A stretch of 20,915 bases of DNA from a virus: IMG/VR virus record IMGVR_UViG_3300027668_000982, positions 1 to 20,915 of that record. The stretch is one strand, 5' to 3'. The notes below the pieces were generated by a model, which saw only the letters and a list, made by a program, of their open reading frames with translations, was not told the origin of the DNA and did no database searches. Made by a program: the position numbers and the translations under genes. The number at the start of each line of letters is the position of its first letter. The first letter of the stretch is position 1. Positions 2,347 to 20,531 of the stretch are shown piece by piece.

Positions 2347-2712
2347 ATGTCAGTAATCACAGGTCAAGTAGCATTTGCTAATTTGTCAGAACATGAAATG
2401 TATCAAGGACAGTCAACAGGCAAGTATTCAATCGTGCTTACCCTAGATGAAGATAATGCAGGTAAGCTAAAGGCTCAAGGCGTAAAGCTGCGAGACTATG
2501 AAGGTAACAAGCAACGAAAGTTTGCTAGTAAGTTTGATGTACCTCTATACGAGCTTAACGGTGACGAGTTCATGGGCTCCATATCACGAGGCTCTACAGT
2601 GCGAGTGCAGTATGCGCTAGGTCAAGAGCACCCAGTGCATGGTATAACGCCCTATCTTGATAAAATCCGAGTGGTGGAGCTAGCAGCCTCAGAGTCAGAC
2701 GAGGACTTTTAA
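2347..2712 (+). CDS. Single-stranded DNA-binding protein, 121 aa
   Basis: Probably the phage ssDNA-binding protein, which coats template strands and helps coordinate polymerase and helicase. The 121 residues form a compact, beta-rich, OB-fold-like body (GKYSIVLTLDEDNAGKLKAQGVKLRDYEG, then VRVQYAL and IRVVEL strands). The acidic tail ESDEDF ends in Phe. An acidic tail ending in Phe is the hallmark of T7 gp2.5 and bacterial SSB, where it docks partner proteins. The gene is first in the operon after the consensus promoter and structured leader and directly precedes primase-helicase, the expected place. The assignment rests on tail, size and context more than on a clear family match. Confidence 0.75.
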   Translation: MSVITGQVAFANLSEHEMYQGQSTGKYSIVLTLDEDNAGKLKAQGVKLRDYEGNKQRKFASKFDVPLYELNGDEFMGSISRGSTVRVQYALGQEHPVHGITPYLDKIRVVELAASESDEDF

Positions 2713-2816: not shown

Positions 2817-4457
2817 ATGTATCCCACAGATAGAGTAGAGAGTCACTTTATAAAACATGAGCCATGCCCCGCCTGTGGCTCTAGTGACGCTTTAAGCAGG
2901 TATAGCGATAATCACGCGGTTTGCTTTAGTTGTAACCACTATATACATGGCGACAACAGCTTCCCAGCTATGACAGGCAAACCTAAGACAAGGCCATTAG
3001 AAATGACAGGCACAATAGCAGCAATTCAGGACAGACGTATTAGCTTAGACGTAGCTAAGCGCTATGGAGTAACAGTAGAGCATAGTGCAGATGGTAGCAT
3101 TAGCAAGCATCATTACCCATACCATGCACAGGGCAGCAATAAGGTAGTAGGCACCAAGGTACGTAAAGTAGCGGATAAACAGTTTCATGCCACTGGTAGC
3201 CTAAGCGAGGCAGGCCTCTTTGGTCAGCAAGCCTTTGCAGCTGGAGGTAAATACATAACAGTAACCGAAGGAGAGCTAGACGCATTAGCAGTAAATGAAA
3301 TGTTTGATGGTAAATGGCCTGCAGTAAGCATTAGGTCAGGAGCCGCAAGCGCAGTCAAGGACATAAAAGCCAGCCTAGAGTACCTAGAGACATTTGACAA
3401 TGTGGTTATATGCTTTGACAATGACGAGGCAGGTGTAAAGGCAGCTGAGGCTGTTGTAGGCCTATTCTCACCACGCAAGGCAAAGGTATGCACACTGCCA
3501 CTTAAGGACGCTGGTGATATGCTCAAGGCCAACAAGGTACGAGAGTTCACACGATGCTGGTGGGATTCTAAAGCATTCAAGCCAGAGGGTGTCGTAAGCC
3601 TAGGTGACTCCGACGTATGGGATAAGTTCCTTAAGCGTGGTACGGAAGAGGTGACGCCACTACCTGCAAGCTTTGGCAGTCTTAACGCCATGATGAATGG
3701 CGGCATTGCAGCAGGTGAGGTGACTGTCATAGGTGCCCTAACGTCAATAGGTAAGACCACTATGGTCTACAATCTAGTGCATGGTATGTACACAGAAAGC
3801 GCCAAGAAGATTGGTTGTGTGTTCTTAGAGGCTGACGTAGGTGAGACAGTAGAGAAGTTACTGTCAGTCTACATGGGCACCAACATTGCCGATGTGCCTA
3901 ATGAGAGTAGAGACTACAACCTGTACCATGAGAAGTACGATGAAATGGCACAGTCTGATAAGCTACACATATTAGATCACCAAGGTGCTTTAGAGGCTGA
4001 CGAGTTATTTGCTAAGATGCAATACTTGGTCAAAGGTTTAGACTGTGATGTTATCATACTAGACCCGTTACAGGCCGCAGTGACTAGCAATGAGAATGGC
4101 ACTATAGATGCTTTCATGGACAAATGCCTCAAGCTTGCCAAGAATACAGGTGTTAGTATTATCATTGTTAGCCATATGCGTAAGCCACACGCTAAAGATC
4201 CCCACGACATAGGCGAGTATGATTTGAAAGGCTCAGGCTCAATTAACCAGATAGCCTTTAACACTATACTCTTGTCGCGAGACAAAATGACGGACGACGA
4301 TTATGCACGTAACTGTACTCAGGTGCAGCTAGTTAAGTGTAGACGTACAGGACGTACAGGGGTAGCTGGTTGGTTGTACTATGAGAATAATACAAGCCGC
4401 CTAGTAGCTACTCAGGCACCTGAAATTAAAGCAGCTAACTCACATGACGACTTTTGA
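2817..4457 (+). CDS. T7 gp4-like primase-helicase, 546 aa
   Basis: Bifunctional replication protein: it unwinds the fork as a ring helicase using nucleotide hydrolysis and makes RNA primers. The zinc-binding domain has Cys17, Cys20, Cys36 and Cys39. The TOPRIM primase core has EGELDALA (Glu151) and FDNDEAG (Asp201, Asp203). The RecA-like helicase has the P-loop ALTSIGKTT (Lys313), Walker B DVIILD (411-416), His453 in VSHMRKP and DLKGSGSINQIA (469-480), which matches the T7 region preceding the nucleotide-sensing segment. At 546 aa it is close to T7 gp4 (566 aa). The last residues, SHDDF, form an acidic Phe-ending tail like that by which T7 gp4 docks its polymerase. The 3' end of this gene is partly duplicated 228 bases downstream. 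Confidence 0.95.
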   Translation: MYPTDRVESHFIKHEPCPACGSSDALSRYSDNHAVCFSCNHYIHGDNSFPAMTGKPKTRPLEMTGTIAAIQDRRISLDVAKRYGVTVEHSADGSISKHHYPYHAQGSNKVVGTKVRKVADKQFHATGSLSEAGLFGQQAFAAGGKYITVTEGELDALAVNEMFDGKWPAVSIRSGAASAVKDIKASLEYLETFDNVVICFDNDEAGVKAAEAVVGLFSPRKAKVCTLPLKDAGDMLKANKVREFTRCWWDSKAFKPEGVVSLGDSDVWDKFLKRGTEEVTPLPASFGSLNAMMNGGIAAGEVTVIGALTSIGKTTMVYNLVHGMYTESAKKIGCVFLEADVGETVEKLLSVYMGTNIADVPNESRDYNLYHEKYDEMAQSDKLHILDHQGALEADELFAKMQYLVKGLDCDVIILDPLQAAVTSNENGTIDAFMDKCLKLAKNTGVSIIIVSHMRKPHAKDPHDIGEYDLKGSGSINQIAFNTILLSRDKMTDDDYARNCTQVQLVKCRRTGRTGVAGWLYYENNTSRLVATQAPEIKAANSHDDF

Positions 4458-4459
4458 TA
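4444..4459 (+). repeat. Direct repeat, left copy
   Basis: ATGACGACTTTTGATA covers the end of the primase-helicase gene, including its HDDF codons and stop. An identical 16-base copy lies at 4672-4687. Extended to 4440-4463 and 4668-4691, the copies match at 22 of 24 positions. Together they bracket one small gene (4472-4675). Confidence 0.9.
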
Positions 4460-4471
4460 TGGAGAATAACA

Positions 4472-4675
4472 ATGAAGATGCATAAAATGTTTGAGTGTGA
4501 GGGCTACACTTTCAAGTGGGCAGGTGGTTGTACTATTAATGTGTACTGGGATGGTATTGAGGTAGACGCCATAGAGTTCTATCACACTTATACTGATAAA
4601 GAGGTAGCTATTTTATGTCTTGATTGGTTAGAAGAGAACGGTATTATAGAAGATGTAGAAGCTTATATCATATGA
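4472..4675 (+). CDS. Hypothetical 67-aa protein in a repeat-flanked cassette
   Basis: I choose ATG 4472, preceded by GGAG (4461-4464) at good spacing; a TTG at 4454 would add six residues but lacks a site. The 67 residues are acidic and aromatic: KMFECEGYTFKWAGGCTINVYWDGIEVDAIEFYHTY begins with beta-like segments, followed by a helix around AILCLDWLEENG. No catalytic motif is visible and I do not recognise a named family. Its look is that of the small early proteins at the left of the window rather than of replication enzymes. It sits between primase and polymerase, bracketed by near-identical 24-bp direct repeats, which suggests later insertion. Its stop falls inside the right repeat. Confidence 0.7.
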   Translation: MKMHKMFECEGYTFKWAGGCTINVYWDGIEVDAIEFYHTYTDKEVAILCLDWLEENGIIEDVEAYII

Positions 4676-4687
4676 CGACTTTTGATA
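4672..4687 (+). repeat. Direct repeat, right copy (primase tail remnant)
   Basis: This is the second copy of ATGACGACTTTTGATA. Read from 4668 it encodes Ser-Tyr-Asp-Asp-Phe-stop, one residue different from the true primase end Ser-His-Asp-Asp-Phe-stop, but in a frame not used by the small gene that overlaps it. The remnant stop (4683-4685) lies 12 bases before the polymerase ATG, with AAGGA between them. That looks like the original primase-polymerase junction. Confidence 0.85.
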
Positions 4688-4697
4688 AGGACCAGTA

Positions 4698-6422
4698 ATG
4701 ACTAGATTAATATTTGATATAGAGACTAATGGGCTAAACCCTAGCATAGTGTGGTGCATTGTCACTAAAGATATTGATTCTGGTGAGGTGATTACTTATG
4801 TTCAGGGGCAATGGGCATTATTCAATAAAGCAATAGCACAAGCTGAGGAGGTAATAGGCCATAACATCATAGGGTACGACATTCCAGTGTGCGAGCGTTT
4901 ACTTGCGACAGACTTTAGTGGTCTAAAGATCACAGACACCTTAGTCATGTCTAGGCTAGCCAATCCACAGAGGGATGCACATTCACTAGCATATTGGGGA
5001 GAACAACTTGGGTATCCGAAAGGCACTTATGAAGATTGGACACAATATACGCCTGAGATGGTGGAATATTGTAAGCAGGACGTTAGCGTTAATGAACAGG
5101 TATACCAAAGACTCATACACGACCTTGATAGCTTTGGAACTGAGTGCGTTGAGCTTGAGCATAACGTACAGAATATCATACAAAAACAAATACGCAACGG
5201 GTGGCTCTTAGATCAACCTAAGGCCAGAGACCTAGTTGCAGAACTAAAGGAAAAATCATATGACCTTGAAGAAATTGTCCAACAAGTTTTTCTTCCTCTA
5301 CCTACGTACATTAAGGAGATTGTTCCCAAGCTTAAGAAAGACGGCAGCACCAGTATCGTCGGACTCAAGTTCCTCGGCGACAGATGGGAAGAAGTAGGTG
5401 GCCCTTTTAGCCGTATTGATTGGCCTGTGTTTAACTTGGGTTCTAGGCAGCAGATAGGGCGTTACCTTAAGCACTTCGGATGGAAACCTAAGGTATTCAC
5501 CGAGACTGGTCACGCTATCGTTTCTGAGGATGTGCTTAAGAATGTCAAAGGCATACCTGAGGCCTCGCTTATAGCTTCATACCTACTCGTAGGCAAGCGT
5601 ATAGCTCAGGTACGTAGTTGGCTTGAGGCTGTAGACGAGGACACACAGAGGGTACACGGGTACGTCAACACTAATGGCGCAGTGACTGGACGCATGACAC
5701 ACAGCAAACCTAACTTAGCACAGGTGCCTAGCTCTAGTAGCTTATATGGGCCTGAGTGCAGGGCTTGCTGGATTACACCTAAGGGCTATAAGCTCGTAGG
5801 TATTGATGCCTCAGGGCTAGAGCTTAGAATGTTAGCACACTACATGAATGATCCTGACTATACTAATACTATACTCACGGGTGATATTCACACTGCTAAC
5901 CAAAAGGCTGCAGGACTGGCTACACGTTCAGAAGCAAAGACCTTCATTTATGCCTACCTATATGGCGCAGGTGACGAGAAGATAGGATCTATAGTGGGTG
6001 GTGGACGTAAGAAAGGAAAGCAACTCAAAGATAGCTTCCTAAAGGCTACACCAGCACTAGCAGACCTTAAGGCTAATGTAGCTGAATCAGCGAGCAAGGG
6101 CTACGTAACTGCCCTAGATGGGCGTAAGATATTCATTAGGTCTGAACACGCTGCACTCAACTCATTACTGCAGTCAGCTGGTGCATTAATCATGAAGCAA
6201 GCCTTGATTATATTGGATAAGTATGCTAGAATATGGAAGTTAGATTATAAGTTCGTAGGCAATATCCATGATGAATTTCAAGTTGAGGTTAGAGAGGATC
6301 AAGCAGAGAAGTTTGGTTCACTAGCGGCTAGTTGTATTGAGGCTGCTGGTATACATTTTAATCTTAGGTGTCTTCTTGCTGGAGACTATAAGATTGGAGC
6401 TAACTGGGCTGAGACTCATTAG
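4698..6422 (+). CDS. Family A DNA polymerase, T7 gp5-like, 574 aa
   Basis: Replicative DNA polymerase with an active-looking 3'-5' proofreading domain. Exo I is DIETNG (Asp7, Glu9), Exo II GHNIIGYD (Asp61), Exo III YCKQD (Tyr124, Asp128). Polymerase motif A is GIDASGLELR (Asp370, Arg377), motif B is R410-x3-K414-TFIY (Tyr418), motif C is IHDEFQV (Asp525). From motif B to the end it follows T7 gp5 closely (LYGAGDEKIG, HAALNSLLQSAGALI, NFRCLL-like NLRCLL). It is about 130 residues shorter than T7 gp5 (704 aa). The exonuclease part is shorter by about 46, and the region that carries the thioredoxin-binding loop in T7 (here about 195-245) is compact. Tyr418 corresponds to Tyr526 of T7 and position 762 of E. 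coli Pol I. Confidence 0.96.
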   Translation: MTRLIFDIETNGLNPSIVWCIVTKDIDSGEVITYVQGQWALFNKAIAQAEEVIGHNIIGYDIPVCERLLATDFSGLKITDTLVMSRLANPQRDAHSLAYWGEQLGYPKGTYEDWTQYTPEMVEYCKQDVSVNEQVYQRLIHDLDSFGTECVELEHNVQNIIQKQIRNGWLLDQPKARDLVAELKEKSYDLEEIVQQVFLPLPTYIKEIVPKLKKDGSTSIVGLKFLGDRWEEVGGPFSRIDWPVFNLGSRQQIGRYLKHFGWKPKVFTETGHAIVSEDVLKNVKGIPEASLIASYLLVGKRIAQVRSWLEAVDEDTQRVHGYVNTNGAVTGRMTHSKPNLAQVPSSSSLYGPECRACWITPKGYKLVGIDASGLELRMLAHYMNDPDYTNTILTGDIHTANQKAAGLATRSEAKTFIYAYLYGAGDEKIGSIVGGGRKKGKQLKDSFLKATPALADLKANVAESASKGYVTALDGRKIFIRSEHAALNSLLQSAGALIMKQALIILDKYARIWKLDYKFVGNIHDEFQVEVREDQAEKFGSLAASCIEAAGIHFNLRCLLAGDYKIGANWAETH

Positions 6423-6430
6423 GGATAATT

Positions 6431-6862
6431 ATGGAAGAACGTAAACAAATAGAACTATTCGTAGATAAGTATGCAGGTGATGCAGAGGCAGCCGACACTA
6501 AGGTATGTAACAAATGTTCTAAAGCTTTACCTTTATCTCACTTTGGCCCCGCTAATGGTGGGGTATACCTACGGCCTGAGTGTAGGGCGTGTCTAAACTA
6601 TGGCGTTAAGATACGTAAGGGGCTACGGGAAATACACGGTATGCCGCCTGCTGGTCATCATTGCCCTCTATGCTTATGTAGTGAGGAGGAAGCCCAAGGT
6701 AAAGGAGGATTCAAGTCTAGCGCATGGGCATTGGATCACGACCATGACACAGATACCTTTAGAGGCTGGTTGTGTCATAGTTGTAATAGAGCATTAGGGG
6801 TTTTCAATGACGACATACCACGTATGCAGAGAGCAATTAACTATATTAGAGGTAAAGTATGA
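6431..6862 (+). CDS. Endonuclease VII family nuclease, 143 aa
   Basis: Probably a recombination endonuclease VII homologue, a zinc-stabilised His-Me finger nuclease that cuts branched DNA. The C-terminal half has the family signature: CPLC (Cys78, Cys81), DHDHDT (102-107), GWLCHSCNRALG (Cys115, Cys118), then NDD. An extra N-terminal module has CNKC (26-29) and CRAC (51-54), with LPLSHF between, and looks like a second zinc site. At 143 aa it is close to T4 gp49 (157 aa). It starts 8 bases after the polymerase stop and ends overlapping the exonuclease start (ATGA at 6859). A homing HNH role is possible but less likely, given the DHDHDT core and its place among replication genes. Confidence 0.9.
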   Translation: MEERKQIELFVDKYAGDAEAADTKVCNKCSKALPLSHFGPANGGVYLRPECRACLNYGVKIRKGLREIHGMPPAGHHCPLCLCSEEEAQGKGGFKSSAWALDHDHDTDTFRGWLCHSCNRALGVFNDDIPRMQRAINYIRGKV

Positions 6863-7602
6863 ATAAGACTAAAGGTAAGCCATTTGCAAAGTGCTTTGTT
6901 GATGCGGACAGCTTAATATTCCGTATAGCACTTAAGACAGACATAACCCTTAAGCTGGCTAAGGAATACTACGACAAAGCCATAGAGGACATTGTGTGGA
7001 ACACCTGCAGTGATGAAGTCTTTGTAGCTCTTAAGGGTAAAGGTAACTTCAGGTATGAGGTGGCTGACGACTACAAGCAACACAGGAGCGGTAAACCTTT
7101 GGATGATAAGGTAGCTAAGAGGCGTAAGGCTTTGAACAAATATGCTTATAGCCAAGGGCATCATAAGTCAGACAATTGTGAAGCTGATGATGTGGTATCC
7201 ATATGGGCACAGGAGGCCTTAGACGCTGGTGAGAACTTTGTCATAGCACATATAGATAAAGACATAGACATGGTAGAAGGTTGGCACTACAACTTCACCA
7301 AAGAAACTTTATACTACATTGATGCAGACAAGGGCTGGTACAAGATGTGCCTACAGATGCTCACAGGAGACTCTACAGACAACATACAAGGCCTTAGAGG
7401 TATTGGCCCTAAGACAGCACAGAAGCTGTTGAAGGATGTTGATACAGAGGATATGGTAGCCAAGGTGCAGGAGGTGTGGAAGGATAAGCATCCTGAGGAT
7501 TGGGAGTCTAGGCTTGAGGTCTGCTGGAATCTTATCTATATGCGTCGAGACTGGAATAGCTTCAAGCAACTAACTATAAAGGATACACTGACTTATGCTT
7601 AA
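6859..7602 (+). CDS. 5'-3' exonuclease, FEN/T7 gp6-like, 247 aa
   Basis: Flap-type 5'-3' exonuclease that would remove RNA primers and degrade DNA from 5' ends for nucleotide recycling and recombination. The metal-binding acidic residues are placed as in the family: FVDAD (Asp15), NCEADD (Glu108, Asp110, Asp111), IDKDID (Asp133, Asp135) and LTGDSTDN (Asp171, Asp174). A helix-hairpin-helix follows (GLRGIGPKTAQKLL, 178-191) that binds duplex DNA. At 247 aa it is shorter than T7 gp6 (300 aa). Overlaps with endonuclease VII (4 bases) and endonuclease I (8 bases) suggest coordinated translation. Confidence 0.93.
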   Translation: MNKTKGKPFAKCFVDADSLIFRIALKTDITLKLAKEYYDKAIEDIVWNTCSDEVFVALKGKGNFRYEVADDYKQHRSGKPLDDKVAKRRKALNKYAYSQGHHKSDNCEADDVVSIWAQEALDAGENFVIAHIDKDIDMVEGWHYNFTKETLYYIDADKGWYKMCLQMLTGDSTDNIQGLRGIGPKTAQKLLKDVDTEDMVAKVQEVWKDKHPEDWESRLEVCWNLIYMRRDWNSFKQLTIKDTLTYA

Positions 7603-7972: not shown

Positions 7973-8112
7973 GAGAACAAATATTACACAACTATGATGT
8001 TGACTTCTTGTGTGAGCTACTAGGGATTACAAGTGAATCCTTAGTGGATCGTTATGAGGACTTAATCATGAAGAATCTTTCACTATTTGAAGAGGATACA
8101 TTAGATGACTAA
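7948..8112 (+). CDS. Small conserved-looking acidic phage protein, 54 aa
   Basis: A 54-residue frame, ATG 7948 to TAA 8110-8112. It fills the gap between endonuclease I and the DUF3310 gene and overlaps them by 25 and 8 bases, which supports it. The protein (start MSSTFEEIREQILHNYDVDF, then a LCELLGITSESLVDRYEDLI helix pair) is acidic and all-helical. Small proteins with this DVDF-L-x2-LGI-x-SE-x-L-x-DR-E pattern recur in T7-like and other phages without a known role. An adaptor or helper function near the nucleases is possible but not shown. Confidence 0.7.
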   Translation: MSSTFEEIREQILHNYDVDFLCELLGITSESLVDRYEDLIMKNLSLFEEDTLDD

Positions 8113-8521
8113 AGTTGTAGGATCAATGGAATATGCTTATGACCAACCCGACTCAGTGGGATTTGATTGGGAACATGATGTGACATATAACCTAAATGAT
8201 GATGATGACATATCCTGTGATTGTAACTTGAAAGGAGAACCTATGAAAGCACTAGACATACAGGTAGGCGGTGACCACTACACTAGTATGAAGCTACAGC
8301 CTCTTGAGAAGACTTATCTACAGTATGGTTATGAGGGTGTCAAACATTCCCTCTATACCAAGGTAGACAAATATCTCACTAGGGACAAGGGTACAGATAG
8401 GGTTGATATTGAGAAAGCTATTCACTGCCTACAGTTACAACTAGAGTTTTATGACAGGTGGGCCGCTTTAGAAGCTCTAGAGCCTCGTAACAAGGCACAA
8501 CCTATAGAAGGTAACAAATGA
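8105..8521 (+). CDS. DUF3310 protein with possible internal start, 138 aa
   Basis: The C-terminal 92 residues form a DUF3310 domain: QVGGDHYTSMKLQPLE, then a YLTRDKGTDRVDIEKAIHCL helix. T7 gp1.7, a nucleotide kinase, carries a related region, so a role in nucleotide metabolism is possible but unproven. The first 46 residues are an acidic extension (NLNDDDDISCDCN) not typical of the domain. ATG 8105 has GAAGAGG upstream; ATG 8243 (residue 47) has the stronger AAAGGAGA at 8231-8238 and starts exactly at the domain. Two products of 138 and 92 residues may be made. The end is coupled to the lysozyme start by ATGA at 8518. Confidence 0.8.
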   Translation: MTKVVGSMEYAYDQPDSVGFDWEHDVTYNLNDDDDISCDCNLKGEPMKALDIQVGGDHYTSMKLQPLEKTYLQYGYEGVKHSLYTKVDKYLTRDKGTDRVDIEKAIHCLQLQLEFYDRWAALEALEPRNKAQPIEGNK

Positions 8522-8949
8522 ACAAGCTAAGTGCTATGCTTACAAAGCATGAAGGTTCTAGAGCTTTTGCTTATAGATGCACAACAGGCAAGCTAACCAT
8601 AGGAATTGGACGTAATATAGATGAAGATGGTGGCTTAGGTCTGTCTACACAAGAGATTCAGGTCTTACTTACTAATGACATTATAAGAGTAGAGGAGGAA
8701 CTAAGTAACTCGTTACCTTGGGTTATAAGCTTAGACTGTACACGTCTTGATGCGTTAGTTGACATTTGCTTTAACTTAGGCCTACCTAGGTTCCTTAGGT
8801 TTGCTAAAGCACTTGATGCACTTGAGGCAGGTGACTACGATAAGGCAGCAGACGAGTTCATGGACAGTCGATGGGCAAATCAAGTAGGCTACAGAGCCTT
8901 TGAAGTTAGTGAAATGATTAGAACTGGCGTATACCAAGAGGAATACTAA
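8518..8949 (+). CDS. T4-type lysozyme (endolysin), 143 aa
   Basis: GH24 muramidase that would cut peptidoglycan at the end of infection. The catalytic pattern is Glu12 (KHEGSRAFAY), Cys21 (YRCTTG), Thr27 (LTIGIGRN), i.e. E-8aa-C-5aa-T. T4 lysozyme has Asp20 where Cys21 is here. Family knowledge: Cys replaces this Asp in some natural phage endolysins, and the Asp-to-Cys change in T4 lysozyme keeps activity. The later AL-x2-ICFNLG and SRWANQVGYRA-E segments fit the T4-type C-terminal lobe. There is no signal peptide or anchor helix, so it should stay in the cytoplasm until a holin opens the membrane. Start coupling: ATGA at 8518-8521. Confidence 0.93.
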   Translation: MNKLSAMLTKHEGSRAFAYRCTTGKLTIGIGRNIDEDGGLGLSTQEIQVLLTNDIIRVEEELSNSLPWVISLDCTRLDALVDICFNLGLPRFLRFAKALDALEAGDYDKAADEFMDSRWANQVGYRAFEVSEMIRTGVYQEEY

Positions 8950-8950
8950 G

Positions 8951-9121
8951 ATGAACGGACAGGTAAGAGGTTTAGCGTTAGAGTTGTTAAGAGAAGAGTG
9001 TGTGGAAGGTTTAAATAAAGCCTCGTTACCTGAGAGCAGTAAAGAAAGTAAAGTAGAAGCGGAACGGGCCTGTAAATTATACGATAATGCACTACATGGG
9101 AAGACTAAAGATGTTAATTAA
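8951..9121 (+). CDS. Hypothetical protein, 56 aa
   Basis: A 56-residue frame, ATG 8951 to TAA 9119-9121, one base after the lysozyme stop and with GAGG upstream. The protein is hydrophilic and helical, begins MNGQVRGLALELLREECVEG and has a Ser/Lys/Glu-rich middle (PESSKESKVEAERA) and a basic end. It has two separated Cys and no membrane segment, so it does not look like a holin. It overlaps the thioredoxin-like gene by 11 bases. The frame fits the compact spacing of the operon, but I do not recognise it. Confidence 0.6.
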   Translation: MNGQVRGLALELLREECVEGLNKASLPESSKESKVEAERACKLYDNALHGKTKDVN

Positions 9122-9344
9122 ATTTTACACAGAAGGCTGTCAGCCATGTTATGCGCTAGGTGTTTCATTAGATAAGCTACTAATTGACTACACAGAGGTA
9201 GACATTGGCAAAGACCTAGAATCAGCTATAAAACATAAAGTAATGAGTGTACCTACTTTGCTAAATACAGAGACAGGTAGCAGGCTCACTGGTTTTACAG
9301 GTCAGGTACAACTAGAGGAGTGGTTAAATGACAATCAACATTGA
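9111..9344 (+). CDS. Thioredoxin/glutaredoxin-like protein, 77 aa
   Basis: Small redox protein, probably the electron donor that reduces the phage ribonucleotide reductase. From ATG 9111 it reads MLIKFYTEGCQPC: a first beta strand, then the active-site CxxC (Cys-Gln-Pro-Cys) at residues 10-13. The cis-proline segment SVPTL follows, then a GFTGQ-QLEEWL end. The frame is open to 9087, but that would add eight residues before the natural beta strand. At 77 aa it is of glutaredoxin/NrdH size, and the CQPC motif lies between the classes, so which reductase recharges it is unclear. It overlaps NrdA by 17 bases. A thioredoxin-like polymerase partner role is a less likely alternative. Confidence 0.88.
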   Translation: MLIKFYTEGCQPCYALGVSLDKLLIDYTEVDIGKDLESAIKHKVMSVPTLLNTETGSRLTGFTGQVQLEEWLNDNQH

Positions 9345-11076
9345 TTATAATCGTAATGATTTACTATCAGAGCAGGCTTTTGTGCTTCTTAAAGACTACT
9401 ACTGTCGTGAGGATGAAGACCCTCAAGAAGCTTATGCTAGAGCAGCTACTGCCTTTAGTAAGCATGACGAGGCTTTAGCACAACGTATCTATGACTACGC
9501 CAGCAAAGGTTGGTTTATGTTTAGTTCGCCTATACTATCCAACGCCCCAAAGGAGGGGGAGAAAATAAATGGACTACCTATTAGCTGCTTTTTGTCTTAC
9601 GTACCTGACAGCCTTGATGGTCTTATCGGACACTCTACAGAACTCCGATGGTTGTCTGTTAAAGGTGGTGGAGTGGGTGGTCATTGGTCTGACATCCGCA
9701 GTGTTAGTGATGTTGCTCCTTCACCCATACCTTTCCTAAAGACTGTTGACAGTGATATGACAGCCTATAGGCAAGGTAAGACTCGTAAGGGTTCCTATGC
9801 AGCCTACATGGACATTAGCCATCCAGACATAATTGAATTTATTAATATACGTGTACCGACAGGAGGTGATCCAAACCGTAAGGCATTTAACATTCACAAT
9901 GCAGTTAACATTACAGATAGGTTTATGGATGCTGTAGTAGCTGGTGACACTTGGCCTTTAGTAGATCCTGACGATAAGACAGTACGTGACTTGCTACCAG
10001 CACGTGAGTTGTGGGAGAGACTAATTGAGACACGCTTTAGGACAGGTGAGCCTTACTTAAACTTTATTGATGAAGCCAACAGGCACTTACCACCATCCAT
10101 GAAGGAGAAAGGATTAGAGATACATGGTTCTAACCTATGTAACGAGATACACTTACCTACATCAGATGAACGTACAGCAGTGTGTTGTTTGTCAAGTGTT
10201 AACTTAGAGTATTACGAAGAGTGGAAAGACACCACTATGGTATCGGATTTAATTACTATGTTAGACAACGTAATTAGCTTCTTCTGTTTCCATGCGCCTA
10301 AGGAGCTACGTAAGGCTGTCTACAGCGCCACACAAGAGCGTTCACTAGGACTAGGGGCAATGGGGTTCCATAGTGCTTTGCAACGCTTAGGCGTACCGTG
10401 GGAGTCTCCTATGGCTACTGCTTTGAATACTGAGATGTTTACCCACATCAAAGCACAAGCTAGGGCAGCATCAGTGTATTTAGCTGAGGAACGTGGGGCT
10501 TGTCCTGACGTAGCAGGTATGCGTAACAGCCACTTGTTAGCTATAGCGCCTAATGCTAACAGCAGTATCATTGCAGGTTGTTCTGCTAGTATAGAACCAT
10601 TAAAGTCTAATGCCTTTACTCACAGGACAAGAGTAGGCGCCCACTTGGTAGAGAACAAGTATTTAGCTAAAGTTCTTAAGGGTTACAACAGCGACCCTAA
10701 GTGGCTAGCAGAGCAGTGGAAGTCTATACTATTACATGAGGGCAGCGTACAGCACCTAGAATGGATGGAAGAATGGGATAAGCAAGTATTTAAGACTGCT
10801 TTTGAGTTAGATCAACGATGGGTTATAGATCATGCAGCGAGTAGACAACCTTTCATATGCCAAGGACAGAGTGTTAACCTATTCTTTCCAGCAGGTACAG
10901 ATAAGGCCTATGTGAATGAAGTACACCTGAGAGCTTACAATAAGAAGCTTAAGGGCTTGTATTACCTAAGGACTAGTGCAGGATCTAGTGCAGACAAGGT
11001 AAGCGTTAAGCCTACACGTGTTGCTCTAGCGGATTTTAATAATGATGAAGACGAATGTCTAAGTTGCCAAGGATAA
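9328..11076 (+). CDS. nrdA: Class I ribonucleotide reductase, large subunit, 582 aa
   Basis: Catalytic alpha subunit, reducing ribonucleotides to deoxyribonucleotides with NrdB. Motifs: Cys87 in LPISCFLS (first redox Cys), Asn269-x-Cys271-x-Glu273 (the catalytic N-x-C-x-E with thiyl radical Cys), Cys286 in CCLSSVNL (second redox Cys), Tyr545-Tyr546 (radical transfer pair) and the C-terminal Cys577-x2-Cys580 shuttle. GGVGGHWSDIR (114-124) fits the conserved substrate/effector region. It is about 180 residues shorter than E. coli NrdA (761 aa) and starts almost directly in the catalytic domain, so it has no N-terminal ATP cone and probably no dATP shut-off of activity. It starts inside the thioredoxin gene and ends six bases before nrdB. 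Confidence 0.96.
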   Translation: MTINIDYNRNDLLSEQAFVLLKDYYCREDEDPQEAYARAATAFSKHDEALAQRIYDYASKGWFMFSSPILSNAPKEGEKINGLPISCFLSYVPDSLDGLIGHSTELRWLSVKGGGVGGHWSDIRSVSDVAPSPIPFLKTVDSDMTAYRQGKTRKGSYAAYMDISHPDIIEFINIRVPTGGDPNRKAFNIHNAVNITDRFMDAVVAGDTWPLVDPDDKTVRDLLPARELWERLIETRFRTGEPYLNFIDEANRHLPPSMKEKGLEIHGSNLCNEIHLPTSDERTAVCCLSSVNLEYYEEWKDTTMVSDLITMLDNVISFFCFHAPKELRKAVYSATQERSLGLGAMGFHSALQRLGVPWESPMATALNTEMFTHIKAQARAASVYLAEERGACPDVAGMRNSHLLAIAPNANSSIIAGCSASIEPLKSNAFTHRTRVGAHLVENKYLAKVLKGYNSDPKWLAEQWKSILLHEGSVQHLEWMEEWDKQVFKTAFELDQRWVIDHAASRQPFICQGQSVNLFFPAGTDKAYVNEVHLRAYNKKLKGLYYLRTSAGSSADKVSVKPTRVALADFNNDEDECLSCQG

Positions 11077-11082
11077 AGAAGA

Positions 11083-12036
11083 ATGAGTTTATTGACAGTA
11101 TCAGCAGCATACAAGCCCTTTAACTACTCAAGCTTTGTTGAGCAAGCTATTGAACACGATAAGTTAGCTTGGGGAGAATGGGAGTGTGACTTACAAGAAG
11201 ATGTAACACAATGGAAGTCAGGTAAGATAACACCACCTGAGAAGAACTTTATCACACAGATACTACGTTTGTTCACACAGTCTGATGTTATCGTGGGTGG
11301 TAGTTACGTAGATGTATTCTTACCACGTATCAAGAACAATGAGGCTAGGATGATGATGCTATCGTTTGCACAGCGAGAGACTATCCATATGCGCTCTTAC
11401 GCCTTGCTTAACGATACCCTAGGCTTTCCTGAGGCTGAGTACACAGCGTTTCTTGAGTACGATGCTATGGCTGAGAAGCTTGAGTTTATGCAGACCTTTG
11501 ACCCCAACACTAAGCAAGGGTTAGCTAAGGCATTAGCACAGACAGTATGTAATGAGGGTATGAGTTTGTTTAGTGCCTTTGTTATGCTGCTAAACTTTCA
11601 ACGCTTCGGTAAGCTTAAGGGTATGTGTGAGATAGTTGAATGGTCGATACGTGACGAGACAATCCATGTTGCAGGTATGACAGAGTTGTTTCGTACCTTT
11701 ACTAAAGAAAATCCAGAGGTAGTGAATGACGAGTTTAAATTATCTATATATGAAATGTACCGAACTGCTGTATCGCTTGAAGATAAAGTTATTGATCTGG
11801 CGTTTGAACTGGGAGGTGTGGAAGGTCTTGAGGCTAGTGAAGTCAAAGAGTACATCAGATACATAGCAGACCGTAGGCTGACTAACCTAGGTCTTAAGCC
11901 TAACTGGGAGATAGAAGAGAATCCTCTACCTTGGTTAGATTGGGTATTAAACGGTGACAGCTTCAAGAACTTCTTTGAGGGTCGTGTGACTGACTATAGT
12001 GCAGATGGTATGTCTGGCGAATCTTGGGGGTGGTAA
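11083..12036 (+). CDS. nrdB: Class I ribonucleotide reductase, small subunit, 317 aa
   Basis: Radical-generating beta subunit, a ferritin-like helical protein with a dimetal centre. The ligands keep the E. coli spacing exactly: Asp68, Glu99, His102, Glu158, Glu192, His195 (E. coli Asp84, Glu115, His118, Glu204, Glu238, His241). The radical Tyr106 (E. coli Tyr122) is present in ETIHMRSY, so the usual tyrosyl radical type is predicted. The C-terminus (DGMSGESWGW) would dock to NrdA and carry the terminal part of the radical path. The gene follows nrdA by 6 bases and is followed by one small gene starting one base after its stop. Confidence 0.96.
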   Translation: MSLLTVSAAYKPFNYSSFVEQAIEHDKLAWGEWECDLQEDVTQWKSGKITPPEKNFITQILRLFTQSDVIVGGSYVDVFLPRIKNNEARMMMLSFAQRETIHMRSYALLNDTLGFPEAEYTAFLEYDAMAEKLEFMQTFDPNTKQGLAKALAQTVCNEGMSLFSAFVMLLNFQRFGKLKGMCEIVEWSIRDETIHVAGMTELFRTFTKENPEVVNDEFKLSIYEMYRTAVSLEDKVIDLAFELGGVEGLEASEVKEYIRYIADRRLTNLGLKPNWEIEENPLPWLDWVLNGDSFKNFFEGRVTDYSADGMSGESWGW

Positions 12037-12037
12037 T

Positions 12038-12271
12038 ATGAGTAGTATGAATTTGAATGACTTAGTTGACTGTGAGGCTATTACTAAGCTAACACTAGAT
12101 CAGTTCCACAGTGATCTTAAGGAAGAGCTAGAGTATGGTGACAATGGAGATAAACCTGAGGTTCTTAGGCTGCTCATTGCCATTGAGACTATCTTTAAAG
12201 AGTTGATGCTACCACATGAATACTTGATCTGGAAAAATGTTTCTGGAGTAGAGTTAGGTCTGATGCACTAA
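12038..12271 (+). CDS. Hypothetical protein, 77 aa, last gene of the operon
   Basis: I choose ATG 12038, one base after the nrdB stop and preceded by GGGGGTGG. The frame is open to 11999, but that would overlap nrdB. The 77 residues are acidic and helical (NLNDLVDCEAITKLTL, then EELEYGDNGDKPEVLRLLIAIETIFKELML). No motif is visible. It may belong with the reductase by position only. It is the last plus-strand gene before the shared terminator. Confidence 0.65.
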   Translation: MSSMNLNDLVDCEAITKLTLDQFHSDLKEELEYGDNGDKPEVLRLLIAIETIFKELMLPHEYLIWKNVSGVELGLMH

Positions 12272-12285
12272 ATCTTACGGACACA

Positions 12286-12323
12286 AAAAAGCCCTACCTA
12301 AGGAGACTCAGGTGGGGCTTTTT
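12286..12323. terminator. Bidirectional rho-independent terminator
   Basis: AAAAAGCCCTACCT (12286-12299) pairs with AGGTGGGGCTTTTT (12310-12323) with a single G-T wobble, giving a 14-bp stem over a 10-base loop. A-runs on one side and T-runs on the other make U-tracts in both directions. It sits exactly between the converging gene blocks, ending the plus-strand operon and the minus-strand operon. Confidence 0.92.
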
Positions 12324-17420: not shown

Positions 17421-20400
17421 TTAACCACCTGTGAGCCAACCTAATCCAGTATCAACCCATCCAGATATATTGGCAGCACCGCCTGCAGTACCCGCGTAAG
17501 CATTTAAACCACCACCGAGTAGATTAAGCCAATCATTAGGTTGATAGTTATCCTTATTAGCTCTTGCTTGTCCAGTAATCAAATTAATACGGTTCTGTTC
17601 AGTTTCTAACTCATAGTTCTGAGCAGCAACGTCACGTGCTAGGTTATAGTTACGGTTACCAGTAAGCATACCCATCTCATAGTCTTGCAACTGTTGTTGG
17701 TTAGCCATAGCCATCTTCTGTTGATTTAGGCCATAATCCTGATACTGTTGCTGAGCAGCTAGTCCATAGTTCTGTTGACCAAACCCATAGTCCTGTACTT
17801 GCTGTTGTGTAGCTAAGTCCATCTTCTGTTGGTTAAGACCATAGTCTTGCATCTGTTGCTGCTGCTGTAGACCGTAGTTCTGAGTTTGACCTAAGGTATC
17901 AAAGGCTAAACGATCCTTCTGGTTTAAGGTGTCTAAAGCCATACGCTCAGTATTGAGACCAAAGTTCTGATTGTTGCTTAACTCAGCTAAGTTCTGACCT
18001 CTATTGGCTAAACCAAAGTTCTGTTGTTGACCTAGGGTATCCAAAGCCATACGTTCAGAAGCTAGACCAAAGTTCTGTCTATTACTTAATTCAGCTAAAT
18101 CTTGATTTCTACTTGACAAACCAAAGTTCTTGTTAGCCATAACATTAGCTTGGTCTTGAGTCTGCTGAGCCAGTCCAAAGCGATCTTGAGCCAAACCATA
18201 GTCCTGCATCTGACCACGTTCATTCAGAGCAAAGTTCTGTTGGTTGAGACCGTAAGCTTGATCCTGAGTCTGCTGAGCTAGTCCAAAGTTCTGTGCTTGT
18301 CCCTGTGCACTTAAGTTGAACTGGTTCTGAGCTAAGCTAGCCTGCTGTTGGGCTAGACCATAGTTCTGAGATTGACCTGCTTGAGCTAATCCAAAGTCCT
18401 GTGATTGTCCTCGTGAAGCTAAGTTAAACTGTGCTTGGTTGAGACCATAGTCTTGAGTCTGTCCTTGTGACGCTAAGCCAAAGTTCTGAGCTTGTGCCTG
18501 AGCATCCAAAGCTAAGCGCTGTTGAGACAAACCTTGCTCTTGACGTGCTTGTTGGTTGACTAACTGCTGCTGAGCAATATCTGACTCTAACTGGGCACCT
18601 TGGATACCAGCAGATAACATACCTTGGCCTGAGCCCATAAGGTTAGCGTATTGCTGCTGCTGTGCCTGTTGGTTCTGACCAAAGCGTTGACTATCTAAAC
18701 CAGCTATAGCCTGTGACCTTGCAAAAGCATCATCAGTAGATTGTGACGCAAGACCAGCAAGTGCTTGAGCTTGTGCTTGGTTCATACCAAATGCGTCTGG
18801 TTGTACCATTCCACTGTCTACACCAGCGCCTACAGCTTCACCAGCAAGCCTAAGACCTAGGCGACCTGAGCCAAACATATCTTGCTTAGCTAATGCACGT
18901 TGTTGTGCAAAGGCTGGATCAAGTAATGCTGAGCGTTGAGCAAACAAGTCTGCTGCACGTTGGTCAGTATTCATGTCAAAGCTGAGTTGATCTGGAGCCT
19001 GTTGTGCGTTAGTCGCTGCTTGTGTCAATAACCCTTGACCTGAGCCTACTAGGTTACTTAAGCTTGAGTAAGGATCGTTAAGGCTGGTTGTGGTTCCATC
19101 TTCGGTAGTCGTAGATGTACCTGTACCTGACCTAAAGGTTACTGGCTTAAATGTTCCTGAGTCTGCAGTTCCTGTAGGCACCGCAGCACCACCTTGTGCA
19201 ACAGCAGTAGGAGCTTGTGCAGCTATAGCTACCTGAGGAGCTTGTGCCTGAGCTGCAGGAGCAGCCTGAGCATAGTTCTGATACTGTAGAGCCGTGGGTG
19301 CTGCTTGTACTGCTACTTCACGTTGTAATGAATCATAGGCTGGTGTGCCTCGTGGTGCTTGTGCCTGATATGGAGCCTGAGGAGCTTGTGGCACCTGAGG
19401 AAGAATCATACCCTGTCGTGCTGCTAGCTCATAGGCTGCTGCTTGTGACTGCGGTGCCTGACGTGCCTGAGGTACTTGAGAATACTGAGGGCCTTGATTA
19501 GGGCGACCTTGGCTCTGTAGTGCCTGCTGACGTGCCAAGAGCTCTTGAGCCTGTGCCTGTGGAGGCTGACGTTCCTGTTGGCCTGCTTGGTTAGTAAGCA
19601 TACCACCAGTGTTGGGGCCTAAGAGCTGATTGTCACCGCCATTCCAGTTACCATAGTAACCTTCCTCAGGAATACGAATCTGAGACTGATTCCACGTAGG
19701 TGCGTAAGGATCATAAGTTGAATCAGTATCTTTAGGTATCGTAGGTGCCCAATCAGGCCTAGCACCATCAGTAACTGGAGCTGAAGGAGCATAAGGATCT
19801 ACTGCAGGAGCATTACGCAAGTCTTCTTGACGTTGCCATTCATCCATTCCTAGATATGCTTGGTCTGCTGCAATGTCATAAGGAGTCTTAACATAAGCAT
19901 TGGGATCTACATAATTAGGATCTTTAGGTGCCCACGAAGGACGACCATCAGGGCCACCAATGTAGTGTAGACCAATCTTACCCATCTCTGCTTTTACAGT
20001 TTCAGGAGTATCTTCTACTACTGTACCGTCTTCACTTACAGTGTGTGTTGCACCCATACTATTAATATCAGCGTTTTCATCACCACGAGTAGGCTTACCT
20101 GATTTATCATTATCCACATGATATAGCTCACGTGCAGCATTAACTGCATCTTGGACAGACATACCTGTGGGTAATCCATCCTTGACCATCTTATCATAGT
20201 GCACCTTAACTGCATCATTCATGCCGTACTTGGTTTGATTCCAGAAGGTCTTACCAGCTGTCTTAAGCATAGCAGCCGTAGGCTTTAGGGCAGCAAGAAG
20301 CATACCAACCTTAGTGGTAGGTAGTGCGTTGCCTTTATAATAACCAGCAGGGTAGTTAGCACCCGTGTTTGACTTAGTTGTGTTGTAGTTTGTTGACCCA

Positions 20401-20531
20401 CGGCCTACTGGGCCAGTGCCTGCAGAAGTTTTTTTACTATACTTTTTAATTACACGATTAGTTTCAGCCTGATCTGCTGCCAGTTCCGCTGAAGATTTAA
20501 CTCCCCTGTTTCCATCATCTATACTAGGCAT
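17421..20531 (-). CDS. Large Gln-rich repeat protein, putative virion component, 1036 aa
   Basis: Start MPSIDDGNRGVK, with GAGGG upstream of the ATG. Three regions are visible. The N-terminal 300 residues are mixed, with DPYAP repeats and Trp/Pro motifs. The middle (about 310-470) is a low-complexity Pro/Gln/Ala tract (for example PQVPQAPQAPYQAQAPRG), followed by a Thr/Ser/Gly stretch. The C-terminal part has a FGSGRLGL-like segment and then a long array (about 665-980) of 7- and 11-residue units such as NFGLASQGQTQ. A Gly-rich hydrophobic end follows (LNLLGGGLNAYAG and GWVDTGLGWLTGG). The array predicts a long coiled-coil-like rod. Context suggests a tail, tube or internal virion protein. 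I cannot say which. Confidence 0.75.
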   Translation of the reverse strand: MPSIDDGNRGVKSSAELAADQAETNRVIKKYSKKTSAGTGPVGRGSTNYNTTKSNTGANYPAGYYKGNALPTTKVGMLLAALKPTAAMLKTAGKTFWNQTKYGMNDAVKVHYDKMVKDGLPTGMSVQDAVNAARELYHVDNDKSGKPTRGDENADINSMGATHTVSEDGTVVEDTPETVKAEMGKIGLHYIGGPDGRPSWAPKDPNYVDPNAYVKTPYDIAADQAYLGMDEWQRQEDLRNAPAVDPYAPSAPVTDGARPDWAPTIPKDTDSTYDPYAPTWNQSQIRIPEEGYYGNWNGGDNQLLGPNTGGMLTNQAGQQERQPPQAQAQELLARQQALQSQGRPNQGPQYSQVPQARQAPQSQAAAYELAARQGMILPQVPQAPQAPYQAQAPRGTPAYDSLQREVAVQAAPTALQYQNYAQAAPAAQAQAPQVAIAAQAPTAVAQGGAAVPTGTADSGTFKPVTFRSGTGTSTTTEDGTTTSLNDPYSSLSNLVGSGQGLLTQAATNAQQAPDQLSFDMNTDQRAADLFAQRSALLDPAFAQQRALAKQDMFGSGRLGLRLAGEAVGAGVDSGMVQPDAFGMNQAQAQALAGLASQSTDDAFARSQAIAGLDSQRFGQNQQAQQQQYANLMGSGQGMLSAGIQGAQLESDIAQQQLVNQQARQEQGLSQQRLALDAQAQAQNFGLASQGQTQDYGLNQAQFNLASRGQSQDFGLAQAGQSQNYGLAQQQASLAQNQFNLSAQGQAQNFGLAQQTQDQAYGLNQQNFALNERGQMQDYGLAQDRFGLAQQTQDQANVMANKNFGLSSRNQDLAELSNRQNFGLASERMALDTLGQQQNFGLANRGQNLAELSNNQNFGLNTERMALDTLNQKDRLAFDTLGQTQNYGLQQQQQMQDYGLNQQKMDLATQQQVQDYGFGQQNYGLAAQQQYQDYGLNQQKMAMANQQQLQDYEMGMLTGNRNYNLARDVAAQNYELETEQNRINLITGQARANKDNYQPNDWLNLLGGGLNAYAGTAGGAANISGWVDTGLGWLTGG
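17586..18539 (-). repeat. Heptad/hendecad repeat array inside the Gln-rich gene
   Basis: Residues about 665-980 of the 1036-aa protein divide almost without remainder into units of 7 (for example DYGLNQQ, AELSNRQ) and 11 residues (for example NFGLASQGQTQ, RMALDTLGQQQ). The consensus is [N/D/Q/R]-[F/Y/M]-G/A-L followed by polar, Gln-rich positions. At one place a 36-residue superunit (11+7+7+11) is duplicated in tandem, containing two AELSN and two ERMALDTL. Such 7/11 spacing keeps one hydrophobic stripe along a helix. Confidence 0.85.

Follow-up and report, generated by a model that had tools for sequence, protein, structure and literature searches.

How does a phage genome come to carry the end of its primase gene twice, with a small gene lodged between the two copies and the DNA polymerase gene starting directly after the second? 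This arrangement is found in a 20,915-base virus record, referred to here in its whole length as the window, whose genes are co-directional up to about 12.3 kb and whose primase and polymerase have distant named relatives in Pelagibacter, Roseobacter and Pseudoalteromonas phages (36-50% identity). An earlier note, made from the window sequence alone, had proposed the capture of a small gene, either by a cassette that carried its own copy of the primase tail or by short-homology recombination, and had suggested that this could be a general route into replication operons. Comparison with related contigs leads us to conclude that a single recombination, in which two related T7-like phages of marine origin took part, has very probably left this arrangement as its scar. 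The features of the window on which this conclusion draws are collected in Table 1.

Table 1. Features of the window around the primase-polymerase junction and of the segments compared with relatives.
Feature	Position	Strand	Basis or remark
gp2.5-like single-strand binding protein	2347-2712	+	phrog_112
Primase-helicase gene (T7 gp4-like), C-terminus ...SHDDF	2817..4457	+	PHROG 239, E 2e-161
Probable imported donor tract, primase 3' part and gene67, L002/L003-like	3587..4675	+	mismatch likelihood scan against L003, sliding windows
Left repeat copy, primase 3' end and start of gene67 leader	4440..4463	+	sequence same in L002/L003
GGAG, likely Shine-Dalgarno of gene67	4461..4464	+	7 bases before ATG 4472
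gene67, 67 aa, between primase-helicase and polymerase	4472..4675	+	own stop TGA 4673-4675
8-base microhomology TCATATGA, donor gene67 end equal to recipient primase tail; holds the joint	4668..4675	+	three-way comparison of L002, L128 and window
Joint sequence in the window, AGCTTATATCATATGACGACTTTT			
Right repeat copy, probable recipient primase-tail relic	4668..4691	+	identical to functional primase end of L128
Stretch of 50 bp identical to L128/L129 empty junction, polymerase leader included	4668..4717	+	sequence comparison
AAGGA, likely polymerase Shine-Dalgarno, probably retained from recipient	4687..4691	+	same in L128
DNA polymerase (family A) gene	4698..6422	+	PHROG 17, E 5e-148
Endonuclease VII-like gene, just 3' of polymerase	6431-6862	+	profile match
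Lysozyme gene	8518-8949		within backbone segment 8261..12300
Backbone segment, 98.8% identical to L129 (lysozyme gene included)	8261..12300	+	pairwise identity, 4.0 kb

The duplicated primase end

The two copies of the repeat, TCACATGACGACTTTTGATATGGA on the left and TCATATGACGACTTTTGATAAGGA on the right, agree at 22 of 24 positions, share a 16-base core and lie at an offset of 228 bases, so that the earlier description of two 24-bp copies bracketing a 67-residue gene (gene67) is exact. The note was also correct in taking the left copy as the end of the primase-helicase gene and in reading the right copy as TCA TAT GAC GAC TTT TGA (Ser-Tyr-Asp-Asp-Phe-stop) in a frame that gene67 does not use. 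The stop of this relic ends at 4685, and 12 bases, among them the AAGGA that had been pointed out, separate it from the polymerase ATG, as claimed.

Nowhere in the window is there a longer exact direct repeat within 400 bp than the 16-base core, and an exact repeat of at least 16 bases within 400 bases arose in none of 100 dinucleotide shuffles. When up to one mismatch is allowed, the core has four matches in 17 records (the window and 16 relatives), all of them at a primase 3' end or at the relic, which rules out a common regulatory sequence present elsewhere in the genome, the finding that the earlier note had named as one that would speak against it. A transposable element or integron-like cassette likewise finds no counterpart in the insert, which consists of gene67 only, with no transposase or integrase, and the repeat word occurs in these 17 records only at the primase end or in its relic.

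The conservation of the primase tail is probably owed to a role of the tail in the protein; the C-terminal tails of T7 helicases carry negative charge and bind the polymerase (PMC8472574). An unrelated gene inserted at the junction of another contig (L040, gap position 1-373) ends in NNDDF-stop, which resembles both the primase HDDF and the DEDF of the window's single-strand binding protein, all being acidic tails with a final Phe. An 8-codon frame, ATGACGACTTTTGATAAGGACCAGTAA, at 4672-4699 shares ATGA with the gene67 stop and TAATG with the polymerase start, overlaps through which the translation of the two genes could be coupled. Elsewhere in the window, the minus strand encodes a 1036-residue protein (17421-20531) with many imperfect repeats of the NFGLA-QQ-QAQ type.

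Relatives with an empty junction and with gene67

Related contigs were collected using gene67, the polymerase, the primase C-terminus, the gene67 family and the primase N-terminus, and the junction from primase stop to polymerase start was extracted from each. Two types of relative bear directly on the window. The contig IMGVR_UViG_3300031688_001110, which appears under the labels L128 and L129, has an empty junction with one copy of the repeat and 12 bases, GCTAATTCATATGACGACTTTTGA-TAAGGACCAGTA-ATGACTAGATTA. Five other contigs (L002-L006) have the primase end, a 14-nt leader, a gene67 of 71 residues and then a cell-wall hydrolase gene (Pfam Hydrolase_2), again with one copy. Both an empty-site relative and relatives with the donor arrangement are thus present. 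Up to the gene67 stop the window has the L002-type arrangement, and from there on it has that of L128, the only contig among the viral contigs searched that matches its polymerase leader.

The earlier note had predicted a relative with an empty junction, a single repeat copy and a 12-base spacing, and had held that the lack of any empty junction among close relatives would count against it; L128/L129 is such a relative, with 98.8% identity over the backbone. Because of this identity and that of the lysozyme gene (99%), which are independent of the junction, we regard L129 as a recipient-type sister of the window. Between the junction and 8261, identity to L129 is merely 71-74%, and the polymerase past about 4717 is 74% identical to L128; therefore the polymerase-exonuclease block was exchanged too, with 4668-4717 standing as an L128-type island flanked by two foreign segments. 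From its sequence, an ORF at 6859-7602 resembles a 5' exonuclease gene. At 8261, inside the ORF 8105-8521 and near a conserved GGTGACCACTA, identity with L129 steps abruptly from 71% to 98.8%, which has the appearance of another recombination boundary.

The probable imported tract and its joint

Compared with L003, the window is 74% identical over 2817-3565, 97% over 3566-4120, 89% over 4121-4395, 92% over 4396-4457 and 98% over 4458-4675, and the contrast between the first two of these intervals is strong (Fisher p 5e-33). Outside the tract, identity to L002/L003 is 74-80%, with the polymerase at 76-80% to L002. A likelihood scan of mismatches against L003 places the best-fitting boundaries at 3587 and about 4668. 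The imported tract thus brought the primase 3' end, i.e., the left copy, which bears out the suggestion of a cassette with its own primase tail. The patch at 89% points to more than one exchange having touched the donor tract, and since the contig of L128 starts inside the primase gene, the left breakpoint is placed by comparison with L003 and not with L128.

At its right end the tract is joined at TCATATGA, so that the alternative of short-homology recombination holds as well. In the donor, gene67 ends with these eight bases (final codons and stop), whereas in the recipient they belong to the Ser-Tyr-Asp codons of the primase tail, and the joint can be read three ways: GAAGCTTATATCATATGATTACTTC in the donor L002, GGCTAATTCATATGACGACTTTTGATAAGG in the recipient L128 and GAAGCTTATATCATATGACGACTTTTGATAAGG in the window. 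Because the window switches from donor to recipient within these bases, the left copy of the repeat is the one that came with gene67, and the right copy is what remains of the primase tail that the recipient had before. The continuation of the left copy, TATGGAGAATAACAATG, is likewise present in L002/L003. Tandem duplication of the left copy is ruled out, the right copy agreeing with L128 over 50 bp and the left copy with the donors. When 400,000 joints were drawn at random between these donor and recipient contigs, 117 had at least eight shared bases, which places the sharing at the joint beyond chance; the L128 tail stands in here for that of the actual recipient, which makes the length of the microhomology itself an estimate.

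The course of events that best accounts for these data would have begun with a recipient that had the L128-type empty junction (a primase ending ...SYDDF stop, then TAAGGACCAGTA and the polymerase ATG) and a donor with the L002-type junction (a primase ending ...HDDF stop, a Shine-Dalgarno, gene67 and then the hydrolase gene). A piece of donor DNA with the 3' part of the primase and gene67 would have entered the recipient, its left end being joined inside the conserved primase gene at about 3587 and its right end at the eight bases that happened to be common to the end of gene67 in the donor and the tail of the primase in the recipient. The product would be one full primase, a whole gene67, the recipient's polymerase ribosome-binding site and a non-functional relic of the primase tail. 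An annealing protein and an exonuclease are known to act in T7 in general, and the join here may have been made by single-strand annealing, with the phage's own gp2.5-like annealing protein and a 5' exonuclease as the probable agents. The product may then have been retained by selection for gene67 and the polymerase leader in intact form, and a further exchange would have replaced most of the polymerase-exonuclease block. Because the polymerase past 4717 is not L128-like, the relic may instead have reached the window along with the foreign polymerase, out of a different phage whose junction was of L128 type.

Alternative explanations

The two-copy state could also be ancestral, the empty junction of L128 being the product of a deletion between direct repeats. 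Direct repeats with a 16-base core would lend themselves to such a deletion, and in a similar case Pope et al. were unable to separate gain from loss. However, the L128 primase tail upstream of the repeat is distinct (13 of 62 positions differ in 4396-4457), the donor contigs carry gene67 with a single copy, and in the primase tree the window lies with L002/L003 (96) and L128 with L093 (99), i.e., with another empty junction and not with the window. The contigs of L129 and L093 moreover show unbroken collinearity at about 92%, an argument for the empty arrangement as the native one of their lineage, and we consider the deletion very improbable. Equally hard to credit is an artefact, in which the joint would be a chimera of two co-occurring phages formed in assembly or amplification. 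That the joint rests on one metagenomic contig counts against the recombination and for such an artefact, and no second contig with the same joint was found in IMG/VR, from which search very near records may be absent; amplification chimeras, too, form at short homologies. Yet the shared words of 8 and 16-17 bases are shorter than the usual assembler k-mers, the product has an intact gene with its stop codon and a correctly spaced polymerase leader, and a simple chimera of two phages does not explain 50 bp of L128 type followed by a third sequence.

The remaining alternatives leave the recombination in place or concern what followed it. As a variant of the recombination between donor and recipient, a homing endonuclease might have driven the exchange, the donor having served as template for the repair of a break at the junction and the primase sequence beside it having been co-converted. 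HNH-type frames lie at the same junction in three more distant relatives, the window has its endonuclease VII-like gene just after the polymerase, exchange boundaries are often marked by phage nuclease genes (PMC10448857), and a long tract on one side fits break repair. We nevertheless judge this variant unlikely, as a nuclease gene is absent from the junction in both donor and recipient contigs, and the joint itself lies at a microhomology, so that a nuclease would supply the break only. Somewhat less probable still is that the right copy was retained because it is functional, for example in the start of polymerase translation. Its frame ATGACGACTTTTGATAAGGACCAGTAATG could couple translation through the overlaps that the sequence permits at the gene67 stop and the polymerase start, and the Shine-Dalgarno sits inside the copy; but only its last part (AAGGA) is expected to be necessary, the leaders of other junctions (12-18 bases) are unrelated, and the two-copy state is unique, hence without comparative support.

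The junction as a variable gene slot

Among 97 distinct junctions, the window left out, 52 are no longer than 20 bases and 45 are occupied. The occupants are the hydrolase gene, relatives of gene67, other small genes and, in more distant relatives, HNH-type frames; the HNH endonuclease-like frames, with motifs such as CQDCGY...FHH...CPTCHKERH, lie in the primase-polymerase gap of L054, L058 and L060. On the primase tree the hydrolase changes at least 10 times and the empty state 9 times, counts to be read with most branches moderately supported and distinct sequences not being independent events. A remnant of the primase tail was found in none of the 45 other distinct occupied junctions, and the earlier proposal of a general route through a duplicated primase tail, along with its prediction that other small genes here would show a duplicated HDDF-stop, is therefore not borne out. 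The junction hydrolase was also considered as an alternative endolysin that replaces the downstream lysozyme, which is ruled out by the co-occurrence of both in many contigs.

Some empty junctions have leaders that resemble the conserved end of the hydrolase (Tyr-Arg-stop), as in the L039/L042 leader CTAAGGTGACCT compared with CTATAGGTGACCT in the sister L034, and in the L008 leader ATAGGTAACTT. The apparent last hydrolase codons and stop can be made out in the L039/L042 sequence AGGTGACCT and in that of L008. These leaders are probably scars of loss, though GGTAACC-like leaders occur elsewhere too and the resemblance is thus no proof. We offer only tentatively, as an idea with the odds against it, that the primase-polymerase junction of this marine lineage is a standing exchange port. 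Genes would come in and go out where microhomologies happen to lie close to stop and start codons, and because the polymerase ribosome-binding site has to be preserved, exchanges would leave the former neighbour's tail in place. Leaders would then record past occupants, the window with its primase-tail scar and L039/L042 and L008 with probable hydrolase-tail scars.

gene67

Relatives of gene67 were found at 23 loci in IMG/VR, and 20 members of the family were aligned. Beyond the junction, relatives occur in at least three other contexts: in L138 and L143 among early genes, in L132 and L135 next to an unrelated primase, and in L134 as a tandem pair. The distribution is that of a small gene that appears to move around. 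The tandem pair occupies 2753-3225 of L134, and L140 is listed with L132 and L135 beside the unrelated primase. The gene is under purifying selection, with dN 0.09, dS 0.78 and a dN/dS of about 0.1 between the window and L006. The window copy is without four residues, GDNK, of its nearest relatives, owing to a 12-nt in-frame deletion at about 4559-4571 (the gene67 of L002 spans 1071-1283), and the donor gene67 is for this reason taken to have been the fuller form. The deletion is flanked by GAGG and AGG.

AlphaFold2 models the protein as four strands and a helix (beta4-alpha, pLDDT 90.6). A fold search with this model gave no PDB or viral match at E <0.001, the best viral matches being uncharacterized small proteins. 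No relatives were found in bacterial genomes, and a search of named phages with the L011 relative as the query returned none that was convincing. Homology to the dGTPase inhibitor gp1.2 of T7 was considered because one gene67 relative matches PF10922 at E 0.014, a match below the cut-off, but neither profile comparison nor fold search supports it: hhalign of the gene67 family against the gp1.2 family gave a probability of 0.3%, and the gp1.2 structures 2mdp and 7u65 are absent among the fold matches listed for the model. A small, mobile and conserved gene of this kind fits a putative accessory role in host interaction.

Discussion

The closest known parallel is gene 68 of the Cluster I mycobacteriophage Island3, an insert of 85 residues that repeats, at its own end, the final sequence of the upstream gene (Pope et al. 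2011, PMC3029335). The near relative Brujita is without gene 68 and has a single recombinant copy, for which recombination between the shared 3' ends was invoked (PMC3029335). The window is of the same kind, with a small inserted gene, an end sequence in common with the upstream gene and an empty relative with one copy, in another phage group, with much shorter homology and with the direction of change better resolved. In Island3, the shared stretch is about 50-60 bp long and is translated as the end of the insert protein, and gain and loss are not separable; in contrast, the second copy in the window is a relic that lies in another frame and is not translated, the joint measures 8 bp, and relatives of both donor and recipient type are known.

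Mosaic genomes that arise at gene boundaries through relaxed-homology or illegitimate recombination have been described for temperate phages with Rad52-like recombinases (De Paepe et al. 2014, PMC3945230). The window resembles these mosaics in involving diverged phages, with one end in a conserved gene, a join near a gene boundary and functions retained, and differs from them in that it belongs to a T7-like phage in which the likely annealing protein is gp2.5-like, a class that is still to be investigated for mosaic formation (PMC3945230). As with morons and other small-gene slots, some genomes have a small gene at a site where near relatives have none. Classic morons, however, carry their own promoter and terminator; gene67, for its part, comes with a ribosome-binding site of its own and lies within a run of genes in the same direction.

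Whether the joints of phage mosaics arise at short homologies or by random joining is still debated (PMC3945230), one reason being that it is rare to see both of the parents of a joint. The window, as the product, can be aligned with a contig of donor type and a sister of recipient type, which makes it one recent and nearly base-resolved case, in which one side is homologous and the other was joined at an 8-base microhomology. The primase-polymerase junction, moreover, stands out as a slot that small genes enter and leave.
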